21,782 bases of DNA from positions 1 through 21,782 of the IMG/VR virus record IMGVR_UViG_3300005577_000098; one strand, written 5' to 3'. A program made the position numbers and the translations under genes. This document shows positions 382-11,379 of this stretch, piece after piece. The notes under the pieces are model-generated. The model searched no databases, was not told where the DNA came from, and saw nothing but the letters and a program-made list of their open reading frames with translations. The number at the start of each line of letters is the position of its first letter. Within the stretch, counting starts at the first letter, position 1. This DNA is from a virus.

Positions 382-627
382 TCAGCCGTCGCAGTTGCGA
401 GCGTCAATCATGTTGTTCACGACGTGGCGGATGCGCTCGTTGACCGCCAGAACTTGCACCGGATCATCTCGGTAATCGCCCGTCAGGCCGATGCCCTGAT
501 GGTGATCGTCCTCCTTGCAGGCGAAGACAAAGCCGCTGATTCTTCCCCTCTCAGCCTTTGCGAGCAGCGCGCGAAGAACCTCGATGGTGCTTCTTGCCTT
601 CCACTCCGCGATGCTGGTCACCGACAT
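382..627 (-). CDS. small conserved prophage protein (81 aa)
   Basis: The ATG at 627 is preceded by a run of six G residues in a good ribosome-binding position. The product has an N-terminal helix (about residues 5-28) followed by a compact segment containing GFVFACKEDDHHQGIGLTGDY and a C-terminal helix. From memory, proteins with an 'AERG..xGFAF..k..dHH..GlTGdYr.DP' pattern recur beside repressors in prophages of Proteobacteria, but they have no assigned function. The 5' end overlaps the 3' end of the repressor frame by 77 bp in another frame. The two are therefore translated from one leftward message and expressed with the repressor. Coding is well supported; function is unknown. Confidence 0.75.
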   Translation of the reverse strand: MSVTSIAEWKARSTIEVLRALLAKAERGRISGFVFACKEDDHHQGIGLTGDYRDDPVQVLAVNERIRHVVNNMIDARNCDG

Positions 628-1168
628 TTTCCAACCCCCCAGTAACGTGCCCTATGTAGCTCGCCTTGTCAGCCGTCAGGTGCGAGGTCGAGGCCGGACG
701 GTGGGCGTCTGACCGGTCCGGAATTGCATCTTTTTGTACCGCTTCAAAGGTCAGACGTGGGGGGTGTTTTCCCTCTGAACGCACGTTCAGCGCATGGTCA
801 AGAACTCCCTGCACATAGATGCGGTCTTCTGGTGTACAGACCTCCCAGCGGGTGCGGTCTATCAAGGGAAATGGCCAGCCGATTCCTGCCGCTTGAGCCA
901 GCTCGGCGATCTCCTGGGCGAGGCGTGGGCTGAAGTCACCAACGACACAACCAAGCCCAAGGGCGAAGCCCTTGGCCGCCTTAAGGCTCAGCGCGGATTT
1001 TCCATTCAAGAAGAAACCCACCGCCGACTGGTTGCCGATGTCATAGCGTAGGCCGAATGCCTCCTGCGAGATAGGGTCGCGCCGATTTTCCCATAGCCGC
1101 CTAAGCGCTGCCGCCTCGCGCTTGTGCTCAGTGGTCACTGTGCGACCGTTCCGGTTCTTGTCTTCCAT
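551..1168 (-). CDS. CI-like HTH repressor without a peptidase domain
   Basis: From the ATG at 1168 the protein has 205 residues. Residues 13-82 form a lambda-repressor-type helix-turn-helix: EHKREAAALRRLWE, then SQEAFGLRYDIGNQSAVGFFLNG as the HTH, then an ALSLKAAKGFALGLG helix. A short segment follows, GWPFPLIDRTRW..., ending in a helix with 'EDRIYVQGVLDHAL'. There is no S24/LexA-like Ser-Lys autocleavage domain, so induction cannot work by RecA-driven self-cleavage as in lambda CI. The last 75 residues are low in recognisable structure and overlap the next gene. The frame stays open to a TTG at 1204, and a GTG at 1138 is also possible; ATG 1168 is chosen because family members begin shortly before 'EHKREAAALRRLW'. 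It is divergent from the Cro-like gene across a short operator region and should hold the prophage silent. Confidence 0.8.
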   Translation of the reverse strand: MEDKNRNGRTVTTEHKREAAALRRLWENRRDPISQEAFGLRYDIGNQSAVGFFLNGKSALSLKAAKGFALGLGCVVGDFSPRLAQEIAELAQAAGIGWPFPLIDRTRWEVCTPEDRIYVQGVLDHALNVRSEGKHPPRLTFEAVQKDAIPDRSDAHRPASTSHLTADKASYIGHVTGGLENVGDQHRGVEGKKHHRGSSRAARKG

Positions 1169-1216
1169 GGCCGGATCATTAGCCGCGCTGTTCGTCCGGT
1201 TCAAATACCGTGGCTA

Positions 1217-1245
1217 TTGACGCAAACAACTAGTCCGGCTAGTAT
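1217..1245 (+). promoter_or_regulatory. early rightward promoter (PR-like)
   Basis: TTGACG (1217-1222) and TAGTAT (1240-1245) are separated by exactly 17 bp, a near-consensus sigma-70 promoter. The expected start of transcription is about 1251-1253, two to four bases before the ATG of the Cro-like gene at 1255. The early rightward operon would therefore start here, with an almost leaderless first gene. Confidence 0.75.
1229..1243. promoter_or_regulatory. inverted-repeat operator in the immunity switch
   Basis: ACTAG (1229-1233) and CTAGT (1239-1243) are perfect inverted arms around a 5-bp centre, TCCGG. The site fills the promoter spacer and overlaps the -10 hexamer, so a bound dimer of the repressor or the Cro-like protein would block RNA polymerase. 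The symmetry is seen directly; which protein binds is inferred from position. Confidence 0.55.
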
Positions 1246-1254
1246 GGGTGCACC

Positions 1255-1494
1255 ATGAATGCATTCGCAGCTATCCGAGATCGCCTCAAGGTCTCGCAAA
1301 AAGAAATGGCTGACGCCCTTGGCGTGAGTCAAGGGAATGTGTCCTTCTACGAGGTGAAGGACCAGACCGTTCCACCCAAAGTCGCCAAGCGCCTGATCGC
1401 GTTCGCACGCGAGCGAGGCCAAGCGGTGTCCTTTGAGGACATCTATGGCGACCCGGAGCCAAGCCCCCGAAAGCGCGCGCGCAAGACCGCCTGA
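1255..1494 (+). CDS. Cro-like HTH regulator
   Basis: This 79-residue protein is a single XRE/Cro-type helix-turn-helix domain. An N-terminal helix is followed by SQKEMADALGVSQGNVSFYE, the classic HTH with Q and S contact positions, and a third helix containing VPPKVAKRLIAFARERG. It ends in a basic tail, RKRARK. It is the first gene right of the switch and divergent from the repressor, the position of lambda cro, so it most likely represses the lysogenic promoter and trims early transcription. The ATG at 1255 sits only a few bases after the predicted transcription start, so there is no room for a Shine-Dalgarno site; translation is probably leaderless. The HTH starts so close to the N-terminus that a later start is unlikely. 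Confidence 0.85.
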   Translation: MNAFAAIRDRLKVSQKEMADALGVSQGNVSFYEVKDQTVPPKVAKRLIAFARERGQAVSFEDIYGDPEPSPRKRARKTA

Positions 1495-1533
1495 CCCACC
1501 CCTAGCGGCCCGCCCGCAACTGGAGAACCTGCC

Positions 1534-2151
1534 TTGAACAAGATCACCGAACTCCCGAGTTCCGCCTACTCCGACGAGCAAACCCTGCTCGCCGCCCAGC
1601 GGGTGGCCATCTTCGGGTTCGACCCGCTCATCGAGATCCACTCGAATCGCATCGTGCAGGAGGGCGGGACGTCCGACGGTGCGACAGACGTCAATGGCTT
1701 CTTGAATTCGCTGGCGTCCAACAGCGGAGCCGGTCTTCTCGGCATCGCGGCCGATCCCGGTGCCTGGGTCGTCAAGAGCTACGAGATGTCGTGGCCCGAA
1801 TATCGCGACGTCGAGATCGGCGTCGGTCAGTACCGCGTCGACCGCAGCATCGATGGCGGTGTGACCTGGACGGAGTTCGGAACCTCGTCCGTCGCCGACA
1901 GCTCGCGCGCCTCCGACCAGCCGGGAATCATCGCCGCGCGCGCCGCGAAGAGCGCCAAGCCGGCGCCCGATCCAGTCTTCAGCGTCGCAGGCGCTCAGAC
2001 CGGCGAGTTCTTCAGCAACGACGAGCTGCTCGAAGCGTTGACCCTGATCCGAGCCAAGCGCGCGCCGGCCGTGAAGGAGACGCCGCGCGGGCTGATGATC
2101 GTCCGCGAGTTCGATCACCGACTCGGCCTGTGGGGCGAGGAGGGTTGCTGA
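1534..2151 (+). CDS. early hypothetical protein (205 aa)
   Basis: A TTG at 1534 is chosen because GGAG at 1522-1525 lies 8 bp upstream and no ATG occurs in frame until far inside the protein. The N-terminal half contains FGFDPLIEIHSNRIVQEGG. The middle has a beta-rich stretch (YRVDRSIDGGVTWTEFG), then an Ala-rich linker (about residues 128-150) and a helical C-terminus with NDELLEALTLIRAKRAP. No family, membrane segment or catalytic motif was recognised. It is the second gene of the early rightward operon, just after the Cro-like regulator, a position often held by host-takeover or anti-defence genes in phages, but nothing in the protein itself proves such a role. Its stop codon abuts the start of the next gene. 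Confidence 0.75.
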   Translation: MNKITELPSSAYSDEQTLLAAQRVAIFGFDPLIEIHSNRIVQEGGTSDGATDVNGFLNSLASNSGAGLLGIAADPGAWVVKSYEMSWPEYRDVEIGVGQYRVDRSIDGGVTWTEFGTSSVADSSRASDQPGIIAARAAKSAKPAPDPVFSVAGAQTGEFFSNDELLEALTLIRAKRAPAVKETPRGLMIVREFDHRLGLWGEEGC

Positions 2152-2343
2152 GTGACCCACAACATCATGCACATCGTTGCCTGGAGCCACACAGTGCTCT
2201 GGACGCTGCTGACGATGTTCATCACCGTCCGGTTCGACATTCCAGAACGAGGCCATCCTGATTACGCCTTCATCGCGTCTCAGGCGGCGCAGGTCATCTG
2301 GATCCAGTGGATGTATCGCCGCGCTCTCAAACGCGAGGACTAA
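2152..2343 (+). CDS. small membrane protein (63 aa)
   Basis: The GTG start follows the preceding stop codon with no gap, and GGAGG lies about 12 bp upstream. The protein has one clear hydrophobic helix (residues 6-26, HIVAWSHTVLWTLLTMFITV) and a second, weaker segment with IWIQWMY, followed by a basic tail (RRALKRED). This suggests an inner-membrane protein with a cytoplasmic C-terminus. The function is unknown. It leads three consecutive tiny membrane-protein genes that share the same compact spacing. Confidence 0.65.
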   Translation: MTHNIMHIVAWSHTVLWTLLTMFITVRFDIPERGHPDYAFIASQAAQVIWIQWMYRRALKRED

Positions 2344-2346
2344 TCC

Positions 2347-2451
2347 ATGCGCCGCATCCTCTCCACCCTCATCGCGGCCTGCTTCTACGCAGCCGTCTTC
2401 GCTGCCATCGCCTTCGCCTGCGGTGGTTCGCTTCTGGCTGTTGGGAGCTGA
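2347..2451 (+). CDS. micro-protein, single membrane helix (34 aa)
   Basis: The start is ATG at 2347, three bases after the previous stop. The product is 34 residues: an MRR start, then an almost continuous hydrophobic stretch (ILSTLIAACFYAAVFAAIAF) and a short C-terminal tail. Positive residues at the N-terminus and the uninterrupted helix fit a small inner-membrane peptide. There is no strong Shine-Dalgarno site, so translation would be coupled to the gene before it. Function is unknown. Confidence 0.45.
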   Translation: MRRILSTLIAACFYAAVFAAIAFACGGSLLAVGS

Positions 2452-2454
2452 GCC

Positions 2455-2580
2455 GTGCTGCGTGAAGTGCTTCATTTCGCCCGCGCCGCAGTCGCGCTGA
2501 CCCTGTACTTCGCTGCATGGGTGGCGCTCACGCGGACGATTGTTTGGCTGTTCGGCTTCCTGCCGGCCGCCTCGGTCTGA
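2455..2580 (+). CDS. small membrane protein (41 aa)
   Basis: The GTG at 2455 follows the preceding stop after three bases, with GGGAG about 10 bp upstream. The 41-residue product has an amphipathic start with charged residues (REVLHFAR), then two hydrophobic blocks (AAVALTLYFAAWVAL and IVWLFGFLPAA) separated by TRT, giving one or two membrane passes. It closes the cluster of tiny membrane genes behind the Cro-like gene. Function is unknown. Confidence 0.45.
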   Translation: MLREVLHFARAAVALTLYFAAWVALTRTIVWLFGFLPAASV

Positions 2581-2588
2581 GCCATGCA

Positions 2589-2777
2589 TCACGACCGCTC
2601 CGCCTTCGGCTTGCGCCGCGCCTTCACGAACGCCACTGCGGCTTCGTGCGATGTCGGGGGCTTCTCCGCTTCGAACGCCTTCGCTAGGTGCTCGTACTCG
2701 CGAGAGATGGTCATGCAGGCGCGCCGGAAGGAGAGGCGCACCGCTTCGGCGGCAGTCGGGATCTTGGTGGGTTTCAT
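2589..2777 (-). CDS. probable small leftward protein (62 aa), strand uncertain
   Basis: Reading leftward from ATG at 2777, the product is a soluble, helical and basic protein: KIPTAAEAVRLSFRRACMTISREYEHLAKAF, then EKPP, then HEAAVAFVKARRKPKAERS. Its amino-acid composition (Ala, Glu, Lys, Arg, few Ser) looks like a real protein. The opposite strand also has a frame (2584-2799), but its product is rich in Ser, Cys and Arg and lacks a hydrophobic core pattern. No good ribosome-binding site precedes the leftward ATG. If real, the gene faces the rightward operon and would be read from a promoter right of 2777, the region where a CII-dependent leftward promoter lies in lambda. Confidence 0.5.
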   Translation of the reverse strand: MKPTKIPTAAEAVRLSFRRACMTISREYEHLAKAFEAEKPPTSHEAAVAFVKARRKPKAERS

Positions 2778-2783
2778 CGGGGG

Positions 2784-2825
2784 TCATTCGTGTCGTTGAT
2801 GGCCTGAACGAATGATCTTTTTTTT
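2784..2825 (+). terminator. intrinsic terminator between cro-like and CII-like genes
   Basis: TCATTCGT (2784-2791) and ACGAATGA (2808-2815) form a perfect 8-bp stem with a 16-nt loop, followed after two bases by eight T residues (2818-2825). The position between the Cro-like and CII-like genes matches lambda tR1. The stem has only three G-C pairs per arm, so termination is probably partial. The same palindrome could also act as a protein-binding site. Confidence 0.6.
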
Positions 2826-2840
2826 GGCCGAAATCGTCTT

Positions 2841-2855
2841 CCCTAACCGACCCTA
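2841..2855. promoter_or_regulatory. direct repeats one helical turn apart upstream of CII-like gene
   Basis: CCCTA occurs at 2841-2845 and again at 2851-2855, ten bases apart. CII-type activators bind direct repeats on one DNA face with this spacing (TTGC-N6-TTGC in lambda). The repeat is visible; its use by the regulator encoded 20 bp downstream is inference, and no convincing promoter hexamers were found around it. Confidence 0.3.
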
Positions 2856-2875
2856 GAACTTAGGACAGCCCCGAA

Positions 2876-3256
2876 ATGAACACCGGACGCCTCTTCTACG
2901 AGGACGAATTCGATGCCTTGCAGACGATGGTCGGCGAGAGCGGGAAGGGCTTCAAGGCCTGCGCCGCGTTCCTCTGGCCAGACCTCAAGCCAGAGACAGG
3001 CTACGCCAAGCTGAAGGACTGCCTGAACAGCGCCGGCAGCGAGCGGCTGAAGTTCGGACAGGTGATCGCCCTCATGAACTTCTGCGAGCGGTACGACCCG
3101 CTGCTCTATGTTTGCGACGAGACCCTGCACGCCCGCCCCGATCGCAAGAGCGTCGATGACGAGAAGGTCAAGTTGACGGAGGCCATCGGTTCGGCCGCGA
3201 ATCTCCTGAACAAGGCCATGTCGCAACTTGATCGCCTGATGGAGCGCGGCCAATGA
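2876..3256 (+). CDS. CII/CP76-like phage regulator
   Basis: This 126-residue protein begins at ATG 2876 with AGGA about 10 bp upstream. The N-terminal 65 residues follow the pattern of phage regulators of the CII/Phage_CP76 type: a helix with DEFDALQTMVGESGKGFKACAAFLWPDLKPETGYAKLKDCLN, in which 'fLWP....e.a..kL.dCLN' is characteristic, then a helix starting LKFGQVIALMNFCERY. The C-terminal part is a long helix (about residues 95-125) with regular Leu spacing that could oligomerise. Such proteins bind DNA and help choose lysogeny. It lies downstream of the Cro-like gene and terminator, the lambda cII position, and its stop overlaps the next start (ATGA). Confidence 0.65.
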   Translation: MNTGRLFYEDEFDALQTMVGESGKGFKACAAFLWPDLKPETGYAKLKDCLNSAGSERLKFGQVIALMNFCERYDPLLYVCDETLHARPDRKSVDDEKVKLTEAIGSAANLLNKAMSQLDRLMERGQ

Positions 3257-3405
3257 ACACCCCGACTCTTCCGCCGATCCCCTGGCTCCCGCTGCCAATC
3301 ACGCCGCTCCCCGAAGTGACGGAAGACAACTCCGAGTTCGTGTGGCGCCTGTTCGACCAGGCGGTGAGGGCGATGGATGAGCAAGCTCGGGGGCAAGCAT
3401 CGTGA
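3253..3405 (+). CDS. small hypothetical protein (50 aa)
   Basis: The ATG at 3253 overlaps the previous stop by four bases and its own stop overlaps the next start by four bases (GTGA), which strongly supports translation. The first 20 residues are proline-rich (TLPPIPWLPLPITPLP); the rest is a helix (VTEDNSEFVWRLFDQAVRAMDEQARG). No family was recognised. A proline-rich arm joined to one helix suggests a small protein-binding adaptor, but this is only a guess. Confidence 0.6.
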   Translation: MNTPTLPPIPWLPLPITPLPEVTEDNSEFVWRLFDQAVRAMDEQARGQAS

Positions 3406-4058
3406 ATGCGAAGCGCCCTTGGACGGGTTATGAGGAAGATGTCCTTCGCTCGCAGTACACCGACACGCTGACGGCTGACATCGCTGCGCATCTTGGTCGG
3501 ACAGCCTCCTCCACGCACCAGAAAGCGATCAAGTTGGGGCTGCGCAAGTCGCCCGAGTTCATCGCCACTACGAGTCGCGACCGCATGACCGACGCTCATC
3601 CGGCGCGCGCTCGCCAGTTCGCCAAAGGCCAGCGTGCCTGGAACGAGGGGCTGCAGTACCAGCCGGGCGGCCGTGCCGTGGAGACGCAGTTCCGCCCAGG
3701 CAACAAGCCGCAGACATGGCTCCCTGTCGGGACGCTGCGCCTGGACAAGGACGGTCTGCTGGAGATCAAGGTCTCCGACCTCCGCGAGAAGTCCGACTGG
3801 ATGCACGTCCACCGTAAGGTTTGGATCGAGGCGAACGGCCCCGTCCCGGTCGGACACATCGTCGTCTTTAAGCCGGGCCGGCGCACCAGCGAATTGGCGC
3901 TCATCCAGCCTGATGCCGTTGAAGCGATCACGCGCGCCGAGCTGATGCGCCGCAACACATACCACCGCTATGGGTCGGAGATCGCCAAGGTCTACCAGCT
4001 TCGCGGAGCGATCAACCGCCAGATCAACAAGCGAGCGAAGGAGGGCAGCCATGTCTGA
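3402..4058 (+). CDS. HNH-endonuclease-like phage protein with Myb/HTH N-terminus
   Basis: The GTG at 3402 overlaps the preceding stop by 4 bp. Residues 6-48 form a Myb/SANT- or HTH-like module (WTGYEEDVLRSQY...IAAHLGRTASSTHQKAIKLGL). Residues 86-190 match the phage HNH-like family: GGRAVETQFRPGNKPQTWLPVG, then HVHRKVWIEANGPVPVGHIVVF, and RAELMRRNTYHRYGSEIAKVYQLRGAINRQIN at the end. The first His (H137) is present, but the usual D-H of the core is replaced by V-F and the 'N..NL' metal-binding segment reads DAVEAIT, so catalysis is doubtful. Such proteins nick or bind DNA in early phage operons. An 8-bp overlap joins it to the next gene. Confidence 0.65.
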   Translation: MNAKRPWTGYEEDVLRSQYTDTLTADIAAHLGRTASSTHQKAIKLGLRKSPEFIATTSRDRMTDAHPARARQFAKGQRAWNEGLQYQPGGRAVETQFRPGNKPQTWLPVGTLRLDKDGLLEIKVSDLREKSDWMHVHRKVWIEANGPVPVGHIVVFKPGRRTSELALIQPDAVEAITRAELMRRNTYHRYGSEIAKVYQLRGAINRQINKRAKEGSHV

Positions 4059-4308
4059 CCGCAAGACGATCGAGGACCTTCGCGCTGTTCTGTTCGAGAC
4101 CCTTCAGGCCGTCAAGAACGGAAGCATGGATCTTGATCGCGCTCGGGCTGTGAACGAGCTCGGTCGCTCCATCACCGAGACCGCCAAGGTCGAAGTCGAC
4201 TACCTGCGCGCGACGGGCGGTGGCGAGAGCGAGTTCATTTCTACCGCCGTCGGCGCCGACAACCTGCCGCCCGGCATCACTGGCGTTACCACACGCCGCC
4301 TGCGCTGA
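4051..4308 (+). CDS. small conserved phage protein (85 aa)
   Basis: The ATG at 4051 overlaps the end of the HNH-like gene by 8 bp and has GGAGGG 9-10 bp upstream. The product contains DRKTIEDLRAVLFETLQAVKNGSMDLDRARAVNELGRSITETAKVEVDYLR, two helices with charged connections. From memory this 'dLR..LF.tl...k....ldra..i...aq.li.tAkvEvd' pattern recurs in early operons of temperate phages, often next to an HNH-like gene as here. Its function is not known. The C-terminal 25 residues look disordered. Confidence 0.7.
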   Translation: MSDRKTIEDLRAVLFETLQAVKNGSMDLDRARAVNELGRSITETAKVEVDYLRATGGGESEFISTAVGADNLPPGITGVTTRRLR

Positions 4309-4346
4309 CGTCACCGCCGACTAACCCTGACCGCAAGAGGCTCCAC

Positions 4347-4634
4347 ATGCCCGACACCACGCCGTCCTGCCACTTCGATCCCAACACCCGGGACGCACTT
4401 ATCCATGCCGCCCTCATCCGCGACACAGTCGAGATCGATCGGATCACCGATGAACTTGTCGGGCAAGGACTGTGCCGACCCCGCTCGGACATGAGCCGGA
4501 TGGGTGAGTGGATCGCGAACCGCCCGGCTGACGCCAAGCCCATCGAGCTCGACGCGCCGGCCGAGGTCGCCGCGACGGACATCGGCGCGCAGATGGCGGC
4601 GCACTTCCGTGGCGTGTTCGCAGGGGCGAAGTGA
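4347..4634 (+). CDS. early hypothetical protein (95 aa)
   Basis: The ATG at 4347 has AGAGG about 8 bp upstream. The sequence is mostly helical, with CHFDPNTRDALIHAALIRDTVEIDRITDELV near the start and a conserved-looking C-terminal helix (IGAQMAAHFRGVFAGAK). No motif, membrane segment or family was recognised. The stop codon shares one base with the next ATG (TGATG), so the two are translationally coupled. Confidence 0.6.
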   Translation: MPDTTPSCHFDPNTRDALIHAALIRDTVEIDRITDELVGQGLCRPRSDMSRMGEWIANRPADAKPIELDAPAEVAATDIGAQMAAHFRGVFAGAK

Positions 4635-4999
4635 TGGCCACGTACCAACCAGCTCCCGACACGATCGCTGCTCGAGCACTCGAAGCCATTGAGCGGGTGC
4701 AGCGGCAGCTTCCGGCCGGCACCTGGGTGCCCAACATGCAGATCTGCAAGGCCATCGGCGCCAAGCCCAACGCGATGGTTCCGGCGCTGGCCCGGGCGGT
4801 CGAGGCCGGTCTGGTGGAGAAGTCCACCGAGGGCAAGGGCTTCATGCAATGGCGCCTGGCGGTCATCAGGACGCGCCGGCAGCCGGTGAAGGAATCAGAA
4901 CCGAAGCATCCGACGTTCTCCATCCCCAACTGGCCGCCGGGCTTCGTGCCACGCTTCGAGACGGTCGTCGTCCCGCAGTACGAAGAGCGGAGGAAGTGA
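4634..4999 (+). CDS. winged-helix-like phage protein (121 aa)
   Basis: ATG 4634 is chosen over a GTG three bases earlier because it forms the TGATG junction seen repeatedly in this operon. Residues 9-72 read as a winged helix: helix ARALEAIERVQRQLPAGTWV, helix NMQICKAIGAKPNAMVPALARAVEAGLVEKS, then a wing, GKGFMQWRL. The C-terminal 45 residues are proline-rich. A DNA-binding role in early gene control or replication is likely; the target is unknown. It shares one base with the next gene. Confidence 0.6.
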   Translation: MATYQPAPDTIAARALEAIERVQRQLPAGTWVPNMQICKAIGAKPNAMVPALARAVEAGLVEKSTEGKGFMQWRLAVIRTRRQPVKESEPKHPTFSIPNWPPGFVPRFETVVVPQYEERRK

Positions 5000-5538
5000 T
5001 GCCGCTGAAGAAGGGACAACGCAACGGCGGTATCTACGAGGTGGAAGACCTTCGCCTGCGCTCGCGCATCGAACCCGACTGCGGGTGCTGGCGGTGGGGG
5101 CTGCGCGTGAAGGATTCCGGCACTGCACAGGTCACGCTCGTGATCGACGGGAAGAAGCACGATGTCACCGGCCGGCGCGCGGCTCTGATCTTGGCCGGCA
5201 AGCGCCCGCGGCGCGGCCAGGAGGCGCTTCCACGGCCCGAGTGCCTGTTCTGCGACTGCGTCAACCCGGCGCATTCACGCTGGGGAACTCGTGCGGAACG
5301 GCAGGCCATCCTCGGCGAGCGTGGCCGATGGAGCAACCCCGAGATGTACGCCGCCATCGCCGAGTACGCGCGATCCAAGCGCAAGTTGGACGACGACCAG
5401 CGCCTGGAAGTGATGTGCTCGGATGAGTCCGGCGCCGACCTCGCTCGCCGGCTTGGCGTCAGTCCGAGCCTCATCGGCCAGATCCGCCGGAAGGTGCACA
5501 CCCGCCCGGCAACCAGCGTGTTTGATTGGAGGGGCTAG
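4999..5538 (+). CDS. zinc-binding HNH-like protein with C-terminal HTH
   Basis: The ATG at 4999 shares one base with the preceding stop. Of 179 residues, the first half resembles phage HNH/AP2-type endonucleases: a CGCWRW start, a beta-rich strand pair (AQVTLVIDGKKHDVTGRRAALIL) and the cluster ECLFCDCVNPAH (C82, C85, C87, N89, H92), which fits a zinc-bound HNH finger. A linker follows, then residues 130-165 form a helix-turn-helix (LDDDQRLEVMCSDESGADLARRLGVSPSLIGQIRRK). This looks like a site-specific nuclease or a DNA-binding relative of homing enzymes. Which base step it cuts, if any, cannot be told. Confidence 0.6.
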   Translation: MPLKKGQRNGGIYEVEDLRLRSRIEPDCGCWRWGLRVKDSGTAQVTLVIDGKKHDVTGRRAALILAGKRPRRGQEALPRPECLFCDCVNPAHSRWGTRAERQAILGERGRWSNPEMYAAIAEYARSKRKLDDDQRLEVMCSDESGADLARRLGVSPSLIGQIRRKVHTRPATSVFDWRG

Positions 5539-8531: not shown

Positions 8532-8890
8532 GCCGTCAGCGCGACTACCAACCCACCATCGACCGCGCCCGCAACCAGGCGGAGATTGCCCAGCGCCGCG
8601 AGGCCAAACTTCGCGAGAAGCGGGACGAGTGCCATCGCGAGATGCTGCGGGCGCAGGCGGCGGCGCGGATCGCTGGCGAGGAAGCGGATGCGCTCCGTGA
8701 CCGGATCATCGGCCTGGAGCAGAGCGTGCGGGATCTTCGCAGCGAGAACAAGCGACTCGCGACCGACCGTGGGACGCTGGTTCGCACCATCACCCAGGCA
8801 CAAGCCGATCTCGCGGAGGCGCGACGGTCACCAATGCAGAAGGCGCGCGACTGGTTCCGCGACATGCTGCGGATCGGGGCGGAAGCATGA
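8528..8890 (+). CDS. coiled-coil phage protein (120 aa)
   Basis: ATG 8528 is chosen because it makes the ATGA overlap with the preceding stop; another ATG 12 bases upstream is in frame. About residues 10-100 form one long charged helix with heptad Leu/Ala spacing (for example DRIIGLEQSVRDLRSENKRL), so it is a probable dimeric coiled coil. The end, SPMQKARDWFRDMLRIG, is an amphipathic helix. No enzyme motif is present. It may be structural or a scaffold for its partner genes. Confidence 0.65.
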   Translation: MSRQRDYQPTIDRARNQAEIAQRREAKLREKRDECHREMLRAQAAARIAGEEADALRDRIIGLEQSVRDLRSENKRLATDRGTLVRTITQAQADLAEARRSPMQKARDWFRDMLRIGAEA

Positions 8891-9243
8891 AACCTCACCA
8901 CCACGCGAACATCAGCGCCAAGCAGCACGGCGGGATCGCGGAGGACTACATGGCGATCCATGAATTCATCGACCACAGCAAGGCCGCAGTTGCCGACGTC
9001 AGGCATCGCGCGATGCTGCATTCGGCATGGGGCTGCTACGTCGTGAGCCAAGTGTTCGGAAACCTGCTGACCAACTCCGATGGGAAGACGGTCAGCGTTC
9101 GCGACATCGCAGAGGAACACATCATCCAAGACCTCGGGTTCATTCCGACGATGGATGACTGGTTGAAAGAGATGCCCATTCAGGGCTGGATGAGCGGGAC
9201 GCGCAAGCGCCGCCAGGTTATCAACTTCAAGACCGAGGATTAA
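8887..9243 (+). CDS. DUF6915-like protein (118 aa)
   Basis: The start overlaps the previous stop by four bases. The N-terminus HHHANISAKQHGG is followed by a helix with FIDHSKAAVADVRHRAMLHSAWGCYVVSQVFG, then NSDGKTVSVRDIAEEHIIQDLGFIPTMDDWLKEM. This arrangement ('HRAmLHsa.G....e.vFG....NsdGk.v.vRdiaEqHv.eDlG.iPt..dWl') fits my recollection of the DUF6915 family of phage and bacterial proteins of unknown function. The many conserved His residues (H13-R40 region and H112-type E-H) suggest metal or nucleotide binding, but that is not established. Confidence 0.7.
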   Translation: MKPHHHANISAKQHGGIAEDYMAIHEFIDHSKAAVADVRHRAMLHSAWGCYVVSQVFGNLLTNSDGKTVSVRDIAEEHIIQDLGFIPTMDDWLKEMPIQGWMSGTRKRRQVINFKTED

Positions 9244-9245
9244 TC

Positions 9246-9680
9246 ATGTTCGAAGCACTCAAGGCCAAGTCCGACGCCCTCCATGCGCAAATGGAAGAAC
9301 TCCGCAAGGAAGCGGCCGAGGCTATGAAGCCAATGCTGATCGCCTTCATGACGGAAACGCCACAGGTAAAGGCCGTCAAGTGGACGCAGTACACGCCGTA
9401 TTTCAACGATGGCGATCCGTGCACGTTCCGCGTCAACGACCCGGAGTTCTACTTCGAGGGCGACGATCAAGACGACGAGGGTAAAAGCCTTTGGTCATTG
9501 GATCGAAGCGACTACGGCCCTAAGCCGGGGCAGTGCTCGCCAGAAACGGCGAAGGCATGTGCTGCCTTCGTCGATGCGTTGGGCGGCATGGATGATGCGC
9601 TGGAGACGCTGTTCGGCGATCACTGCAAGGTGATCGTTACGGCCGATGGCGTGGAAGTTGACGAATACGACCACGACTGA
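9246..9680 (+). CDS. acidic phage hypothetical protein (144 aa)
   Basis: The ATG at 9246 has GAGGA about 8 bp upstream. An N-terminal helical coil (residues 1-32, with regular Glu/Lys/Ala) leads into a strongly acidic beta-rich domain with YFEGDDQDDEG and a C-terminal helix plus strands, GMDDALETLFGDHCKVIVTADGVEVDEYDHD. The C-terminal motif looks familiar from other phages, but I cannot attach a name. The high acidity could mimic DNA, as some inhibitor proteins do; this is a guess from composition alone. Confidence 0.6.
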   Translation: MFEALKAKSDALHAQMEELRKEAAEAMKPMLIAFMTETPQVKAVKWTQYTPYFNDGDPCTFRVNDPEFYFEGDDQDDEGKSLWSLDRSDYGPKPGQCSPETAKACAAFVDALGGMDDALETLFGDHCKVIVTADGVEVDEYDHD

Positions 9681-10060
9681 TGCTCAAGCAACGCACACCC
9701 ATGAGGCGCTCGGGCTTCGCGTCGCAATGGAAGCCGCGCCCGCCCGCCGAGGAACGTCCCGAGCGGCCGATCCTGCGGCTGGCGCGCGTCCCGAAGCCCA
9801 GCGAGCCCGTCTTCGCCCCGCAGCCGAAGGCGACCTATGTTCGCGACGAGGACTACCGCCGGGCCGTCGCGTCGTTGCCCTGCGCGCGGTGCGGCGTCGT
9901 CGGCCGCAAGCGCAAGGTCGTCCGCAAGGAGTTGCGCAGCACGACCCGCCTGTCCGTCAAGCGCATGAGCGAGTACCTCGACAAGGTGATGGCCTTCGCG
10001 GTCACCGACCTGGGCGTGGTCTTCAGCGAGACGAAGTGGGAGAGGTATCGGGGCGAATGA
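9680..10060 (+). CDS. chimera of an HNH-type protein N-terminus and a NinB-like C-terminus
   Basis: The 126-residue frame starts at ATG 9680 (TGATG junction). Residues 1-75 look like the front of a common prophage HNH protein: a basic start (LKQRTPMRRSGF), a proline-rich linker, then YVRDEDYRRAVASLPCARCG, where the first zinc Cys pair normally begins. The sequence then passes straight into GRKRKVVRKELRSTTRLSVKRMSEYLDKVMAFAVTDLGVVF, which resembles the end of NinB-type recombination mediators. The later HNH Cys/His residues and the main NinB body are both missing. A deletion joining two adjacent genes in frame is the simplest reading. The domain assignment is from memory of the families. A RusA-like gene follows with an ATGA overlap. 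Confidence 0.5.
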   Translation: MLKQRTPMRRSGFASQWKPRPPAEERPERPILRLARVPKPSEPVFAPQPKATYVRDEDYRRAVASLPCARCGVVGRKRKVVRKELRSTTRLSVKRMSEYLDKVMAFAVTDLGVVFSETKWERYRGE

Positions 10061-10401
10061 TCGTCATCCCACTACGTACCGTCTCCGGCCTCAACGTCCG
10101 TGAGCATTGGAGGGCGCGAGCGCGCCGCGTTAAGGCCGAACGTGATGCAACGGCATGGCTGTTAAGGCCGGTCACCAAGCCTCCCACGCCTTGCGTAGTG
10201 ACTCTGACGCGGGTGGCGCCGTCAGGTGGTCTGGATGACGATAACCTTCCAGGAGCACTCAAGGGCGTCCGCGACCAGATCGCAGAGTGGATTGGCGTGG
10301 ACGACCGCAAGCGTGAGGTCGTGCGGTATCGGTACACGCAGCGCCGCGGGCCATGGTCGGTGGAGGTTCAGTTCTCGCCCTTTTCGGAGTTGGGCGAATG
10401 A
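10057..10401 (+). CDS. RusA-like Holliday-junction resolvase
   Basis: This 114-residue protein starts at ATG 10057, overlapping the previous stop by four bases. The core GGLDDDNLPGALKGVRDQIAEWIGVDDRKREV matches the RusA family, with the clustered Asp residues of 'DxDN' and the later 'GvDD' Asp pair that bind metal in RusA. RusA dimers cut four-way DNA junctions by paired nicks; phage versions process recombination and replication intermediates before packaging. The N-terminal strand and helix (IPLRTVSGLNVREHWRARARR) are also typical. Its neighbour carries NinB-like sequence, so this is the nin-type recombination segment. Confidence 0.8.
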   Translation: MIVIPLRTVSGLNVREHWRARARRVKAERDATAWLLRPVTKPPTPCVVTLTRVAPSGGLDDDNLPGALKGVRDQIAEWIGVDDRKREVVRYRYTQRRGPWSVEVQFSPFSELGE

Positions 10402-10484
10402 AGAACCTTCGCGCCACCCCTTCACGAAACCGGGCAGGTACCGACACAATCCCGGATGTACGGTGCCCAGCCCGGCACCACTGA
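10398..10484 (+). CDS. possible micro-protein (28 aa) between RusA-like and Q-like genes
   Basis: ATG 10398 overlaps the RusA-like stop by four bases and a 28-codon frame runs to TGA at 10484, just before the next gene's ribosome-binding site. The peptide is basic (several Arg, two final His) and has no recognised family. The only support is the ATGA junction common in this operon; it may exist to bring ribosomes through the hairpin at 10430-10475. Confidence 0.25.
   Translation: MKNLRATPSRNRAGTDTIPDVRCPARHH
10430..10475 (+). promoter_or_regulatory. long RNA hairpin just upstream of the Q-like gene
   Basis: CCGGGC (10430-10435) pairs with GCCCGG (10470-10475); after a small internal loop, GGTACCG (10437-10443) pairs with CGGTGCC (10461-10467) with one G-U pair, leaving a 17-nt loop. 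The 13-bp structure ends about 8 bases before the Q-like ribosome-binding site and could modulate its translation. Confidence 0.4.
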
Positions 10485-10494
10485 GAGGGTCAGC

Positions 10495-11379
10495 ATGAAC
10501 CAGGAACCGACGACAATTAGGGAGCGATACACGGTCGCGATGTCGAGCAGTCACCTGGAACTGACCCCGCACAAGCGAGGCGACATCGACATCATCATGG
10601 CCGCCGGGATGGCAGGCTCAAGCACCGAACGGCCGACGATCGGTTCCCTCCTGTTCCGCCTCATGGCCGAATACGACGAGGTGCGCGGCCCCCGAGCCAT
10701 TGCTCGCCGGAACTTCGAAAGCTCCGACACCCGCGAGCATGCCCGAGCGGTCGCCGCCGATGCCGTGATCCGCGAAGGCAATCGCCGCGAGCGCCTCGGC
10801 GAGCGCAAGATGACCCCCGAGGAACTCCAGGCCTGCATGGTCAAGGCTGCCGAGGCGATGCGCGACCAGATGGCCCACGATGCCCGGATGGCTCATGCCT
10901 TCGTGCTGATGAAGCTCAAAAGCCTGTCCTCCACGAAGCAAGCCTTCGGCGAGTGGGCGATGGTGCTGGCTGGCAAGCGCCGCTTCATGGACGTCGGCCC
11001 GATGCCGCTGGTCGACCCCGAGAAGTCCGGCCTCGTCGCCGCTTGGCGCAAGGGCAAGCAGGCTCAGCAGACCGTTGTCCTGGCGCTCGCCGGCCGGGTG
11101 CTCGACCTGCTGCTCGACCCGAACTGCTACCGCTGCGAAGGCCGCGGCTTCAATGGCGGCTACGACCATTCCCCGCAGAAGATCTGCAACGACATACGCA
11201 AGGGTGGCTGTGGCGGCTCAGGCAAGCGCAACACGCGCATCGGCAAGACCAAGGAAGAAGACGACTTCGCCGGCTACCTCATGATGGAGGTGGACATCAT
11301 GCTCGGACGGGTGACTCGGGAGATGAACCAGCGGCTGAAGGATGAGCCGCCAGCGCAGGCTGCGATGGTGTCGGCATGA
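10495..11379 (+). CDS. zinc-knuckle protein, candidate late antiterminator (Q-like)
   Basis: ATG 10495 is chosen because GAGAGGG lies just upstream; a more upstream ATG (10456) lies in a hairpin loop and lacks such a site. The 294-residue protein has a largely helical N-terminal 200 residues and a Cys-rich segment, CYRCEGRGF (C211, C214) then C231 and CGGSG (C239), which looks like the DnaJ-type zinc element seen in Q-type antiterminators. A helical C-terminus follows. It is the last large gene before a strong terminator and the late genes, which is the Q position. Against Q: it is longer than lambda Q, and the sequence match is only to the zinc motif. A general zinc-binding DNA or RNA binder is the alternative. 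Confidence 0.45.
   Translation: MNQEPTTIRERYTVAMSSSHLELTPHKRGDIDIIMAAGMAGSSTERPTIGSLLFRLMAEYDEVRGPRAIARRNFESSDTREHARAVAADAVIREGNRRERLGERKMTPEELQACMVKAAEAMRDQMAHDARMAHAFVLMKLKSLSSTKQAFGEWAMVLAGKRRFMDVGPMPLVDPEKSGLVAAWRKGKQAQQTVVLALAGRVLDLLLDPNCYRCEGRGFNGGYDHSPQKICNDIRKGGCGGSGKRNTRIGKTKEEDDFAGYLMMEVDIMLGRVTREMNQRLKDEPPAQAAMVSA

Follow-up and report, generated by a model that had tools for sequence, protein, structure and literature searches.

The NinB/Orf mediator of phage lambda (PF05772, phrog_72, PDB 1pc6) has DNA-binding sites that the available part of PMC4118853 names as its N-terminal domain and its channel. In the mutants described there, K48A and W50A clearly lower DNA binding, V106E lowers it too, R103E reduces or abolishes it, and W137A, in the C-terminal helix, has a modest effect. 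The same excerpts describe the DUF968 proteins (PF06147), natural Orf-HNH fusions that begin with Orf and carry the HNH motif as an extension at the C-terminus. Loss of the mediator gene is also documented: nin5, a known 2.8-kb deletion in lambda, takes out the ninR block including orf, and phages carrying it were still propagated, according to the portion of PMC3349717 available.

The locus analysed here combines pieces of the same protein families in a different manner. It lies in the window, that is, the whole stretch of 21,782 nucleotides that was analysed (IMG/VR record IMGVR_UViG_3300005577_000098). Re-reading of the sequence confirms an open reading frame that joins an HNH-type N-terminus in frame to a NinB/Orf C-terminus, as a sequence-only reading had proposed. 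Its parts and direct neighbours are the following:

9246 to 9680, plus strand: upstream gene, 144 aa, phrog_9564 family (function not known, E 1e-22), overlapping the start of the fusion in TGATG
9680 to 10060, plus strand: fused ORF, 126 aa, HNH N-terminus and NinB C-terminus, defined by ORF reading, profile matches and DNA alignment with the related contig L001
9680 to 9904, plus strand: HNH-type codons 1-75 with only the first Cys pair, C68/C71; 93% DNA identity to L001 2998-3224, where the intact gene matches phrog_131
9901 to 9903, plus strand: joint CGG, common to the HNH side (L001 3222-3224) and the NinB side (L001 4392-4394)
9902 to 10057, plus strand: last 52 codons of ninB/orf, protein identical to L001 NinB residues 99-150 and corresponding to the C-terminal part of phrog_72
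10057 to 10401, plus strand: downstream RusA-like resolvase gene, 114 aa (phrog_34, E 3.6e-7), overlapping the stop of the fusion in ATGA

With lambda Orf the fusion has its last 51-52 residues in common, including the STTRLSV stretch, but it is missing the first 98 residues, with the RAGNYA domain and the channel helix. With phage HNH proteins (phrog_18962/phrog_131) it shares residues 1-75 and the first Cys pair, whereas the later conserved Cys and His residues of the intact gene are missing. Like DUF968 proteins, it holds parts of both families in one polypeptide; however, its domains come in the opposite order and both are incomplete. The locus also resembles nin5-type deletions, in that accessory genes including orf/ninB are lost downstream of replication genes, but the deletion is about 1.17 kb, leaves an in-frame fusion and is unrelated to nin5 in sequence.

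Profile searches assign the two halves to different families. Residues 80-121 match phrog_72 at positions 108-148 of 161 (E 1.6e-7), the only part of a full-length NinB/Orf that is covered, and the C-terminal 51 residues searched alone reach E 3.5e-8. Residues 4-76 match phrog_18962, a family without assigned function (E 3.1e-6), and a complete zinc/HNH core is absent, the sequence stopping after the first Cys pair. In Pfam, the fusion gives DUF968 at E 0.056 (profile positions 62-106) and NinB at E 0.23, both under the curated cut-offs, and an NCBIfam search returned zero matches. Membership of DUF968 is ruled out by this sub-threshold score together with the reversed order. The downstream RusA-like gene also has a weaker match to phrog_442, a head-tail adaptor family (E 1.3e-4).

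The intact counterparts of both halves are found in relatives. When viral contigs were scanned with the fusion, two loci emerged, L001 on residues 1-75 (95% identity) and L002 on residues 60-126 (75%). Scanning with NinB brought in L006 (68% identity) together with five weak loci, L007-L011, which were left out of the comparison of gene order; L016 was picked up by a scan with a neighbouring 307-aa gene. In all four related contigs compared (L001, L002, L006 and L016), an HNH gene is followed by one or two genes and then by a full-length NinB gene, both parents being separate and whole at the same place. L001, an IMG/VR contig, is the nearest relative found, and its block is arranged as follows:

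3001-3513: HNH-type gene, 170 aa
3510-3719: 69-aa gene, between HNH and NinB
3716-4099: 127-aa gene, between HNH and NinB
4099-4551: NinB, 150 aa
from 4548: RusA-like gene

The intact L001 HNH-type gene matches phrog_18962 (E 1.2e-24) and phrog_131, an HNH endonuclease family (E 3.7e-7), whereas the best score of the fusion to HNH families is only E 0.07. The other HNH genes match phrog_131 at E 1.4e-19 (L002), 4.5e-7 (L006) and 2.4e-18 (L016). L001 NinB covers phrog_72 positions 18-147 of 161 (E 6.6e-29), and the proteins of L002, L006 and L016 match the same family at E 3.1e-25, 1.4e-23 and 2.7e-8. The last of these is divergent, with 45% identity to the NinB protein P0001, and the L016 record went unmatched in the phrog_72 profile search, though its NinB protein itself matches. 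The genes separating HNH and NinB vary: L002 has one (2532-2741), L006 has two (3265-3771 and 3768-about 4006) and L016 has about two. The first of the L006 pair is a phrog_1818 gene that starts MRVLFLDIDGVLN and looks HAD-like by eye. Directly after NinB, L016 carries a NinG/Rap-type junction endonuclease gene (4379-4924; phrog_171, E 6.6e-60) in the slot occupied by the RusA-like gene in the window and in L001.

DNA alignment with L001 defines the joint precisely. On the HNH side, window 9677-9903 aligns with L001 2998-3224 (212/227 identical, 93%); on the NinB side, window 9897-10100 aligns with L001 4388-4591 (191/204, 94%), and both flanks keep the order and strand of L001. The joint falls where the sequence-only reading had placed the split, at residue 75/76. 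At CGG, 1170 bp of L001 are absent from the window, which is 390 codons and divisible by 3. The earlier proposal of a deletion between two neighbouring genes holds as to the deletion-type fusion; the two parents are not immediate neighbours, however, and the one or two genes between them are gone as well.

Exact homology at the joint, judged by the L001 letters, is limited to the 3 nt of CGG. Of the breakpoint pairs that the HNH and NinB genes allow, 6.8% share at least 3 nt, so this homology is no evidence for a particular mechanism. Window bases 9897-9903, seven in all, differ from either L001 side at one or two positions, so the parent may have had longer homology at the joint. A 5-nt repeat near both ends in L001, CATCG, was rejected as the deletion site, as it predicts a joint 3 nt longer than the one observed. 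The GTCGTC/CGCAAG repeats that had been suggested as the cause do not account for the joint either: CGCAAG lies inside the NinB part, at the same place as in the intact L001 gene.

The fused architecture is absent from 50,697 phage records and 72,556 plasmid records, and in viral contigs a fusion scan and peptide patterns found the halves only apart. An ordinary conserved family, the finding that would have spoken against the initial reading, is ruled out by this lack of any full-length homologue in the phage, plasmid and viral-contig searches. Two patterns spanning the joint, searched in viral contigs, gave no second record containing it. Within the window, the only NinB match is the C-terminal piece and the only HNH match is the N-terminal piece; the NinB protein and the phrog_72 profile detect no second NinB in this 21.8-kb record, which is a piece, its relatives measuring 70-74 kb, so that a further copy could lie elsewhere in the phage. 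In named phages, the 15 matches of P0001 are distant (all below 60% identity) and the HNH protein P0002 has none, while a scan of cellular genomes with intact NinB gave one 32% match, L013.

The genes around the fusion are tightly packed. Its start overlaps the upstream gene in TGATG (9678-9682), and the ATGA coupling to the downstream gene, already read from the sequence, is confirmed at 10057-10060; the L001 block has start/stop overlaps of the same kind (TGATG, GTGA, ATGA, TAATG, ATGA). Because the genes of the block overlap in this way, ribosomes arriving from the upstream gene are probably led through the fused ORF and on into the RusA-like gene. The RusA-like frame is also open upstream across the whole fused gene (window 9646-10401, 251 codons), which is probably a by-product of high G+C content.

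Just upstream, window 8887-9680 contains two genes of the phrog_8143 and phrog_9564 families that are absent from L001, where a short different gene (2890-2998) has the same TGATG overlap; this reads as a mosaic exchange at the HNH start. When the relatives were searched for window 8887-9680, without a positive control, there were zero matches. Downstream, window 10456-11379 encodes the conserved 307-aa protein, which matches phrog_9961 only weakly (E 0.0024) and carries a CRCEGRGFNGGY-type Cys/Gly stretch that resembles a DnaJ-like zinc motif by eye. On the minus strand, window 551-5274 holds four long ORFs (216, 528, 298 and 276 aa, in a stretch whose ORFs run from 93 to 528 aa), none of which matches a PHROG family at E 0.001.

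What the fused product keeps and loses can be mapped by alignment with lambda Orf (PDB 1pc6, E 0.0041). Residues R90 and V93, in the STTRLSV stretch, correspond to R103 and V106 of lambda Orf, and the region of the C-terminal helix is retained. The losses comprise the equivalents of lambda Q45, K48 and W50 (Q51, the R53-Y54 region and W56 of P0001), together with the RAGNYA N-terminal domain, the central channel and most segments of the dimer interface. The HNH side still has C68 and C71, but none of the conserved Cys or His residues that follow C71 in the alignment of P0002 with L006. The product most likely functions neither as an HNH nuclease nor as an Orf mediator.

It is unlikely that the fusion is instead a working small DNA- or SSB-binding protein, in which the basic NinB C-terminal part on a new N-terminus would act in recombination or compete with host mediators. 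The residues it keeps give this reading some substance, since mutants in both the R103/V106 stretch and the C-terminal helix affect binding in lambda Orf, as far as the part of PMC4118853 available describes them. The open frame and both overlaps are preserved, as in a working gene, and all 10 differences from L001 among the 156 bases of the NinB part are synonymous, in keeping with constraint. Assigned with L002 and L006 as outgroups, however, 2 of these changes fall on the window branch and 6 on the L001 branch, and 2 could not be placed; with so few window-branch changes, decay after the fusion is not measurable, and a young remnant cannot be separated from a constrained gene. For comparison, the HNH part has 12 differences from L001 in synonymous and 4 in non-synonymous codons, the RusA-like gene 26 and 20, and the 307-aa gene 51 and 14. 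Against a working protein stand the missing domain, channel and most of the interface, and its status as a singleton in the phage, plasmid and viral-contig searches. The AlphaFold model of the fusion is of low confidence and without a globular core (mean pLDDT 51.5, pTM 0.20), but this is weak evidence, as the intact NinB model from three sequences is likewise poor (49.9 and 0.34). A more specific form, a new small basic protein kept by selection, is very improbable; in it, a disordered arm rich in Pro and Arg would carry the Orf RecA-motif segment and the C-terminal DNA-binding helix, and the protein would work independently of the Orf ring, for example as a peptide that interacts with SSB or RecA.

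A library or assembly chimera, with a joint not present in any real phage, also appears quite unlikely. The IMG/VR record that forms the window is represented by a single contig, the joint recurs in no second record and its homology is 3 nt only, all of which would suit an artefact. Overlap-based assemblers, however, do not usually join sequences on 3 nt. Moreover, the two flanks differ from L001 by 6-7% each, being variants proper to the window, and their order and strand are as expected. A random joint is in frame only one time in three, a point that counts against a chimera and against a deletion scar alike.

Between a remnant and a working protein, the remnant is favoured. The fused ORF is probably a one-off in-frame deletion scar, or the outcome of an equivalent illegitimate recombination between relatives; because the relatives still have both genes whole, an ordinary deletion remnant is most likely, rather than a new kind of protein. 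The ancestral order would have been that of L001, with HNH, two small genes and NinB in an accessory recombination block after dnaB. Breaks after HNH codon 74/75 and at NinB codon 99 would have removed about 1170 bp, a size taken from L001 since the true parent was not found, and the ends would have been united at CGG. Two accessory DNA-processing genes would thereby be lost, leaving an operon still translatable into the RusA-like gene. Such a deletion may have been tolerated for two reasons: the lost functions are accessory, and a joint in frame lets translation continue through TGATG and ATGA into the RusA-like gene. By likeness to lambda nin5, in which orf disappears along with the remainder of ninR, the loss of NinB would be tolerable.

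As an example of an illegitimate joint made in frame within a phage recombination block, the locus is clean and nearly resolved, and the intact arrangement is known from relatives. Should the product work after all, it would raise the question of whether the C-terminal part of Orf can act alone. For the NinB family more broadly, the case advises caution, as profile matches to the C-terminal third of NinB may be deletion remnants.
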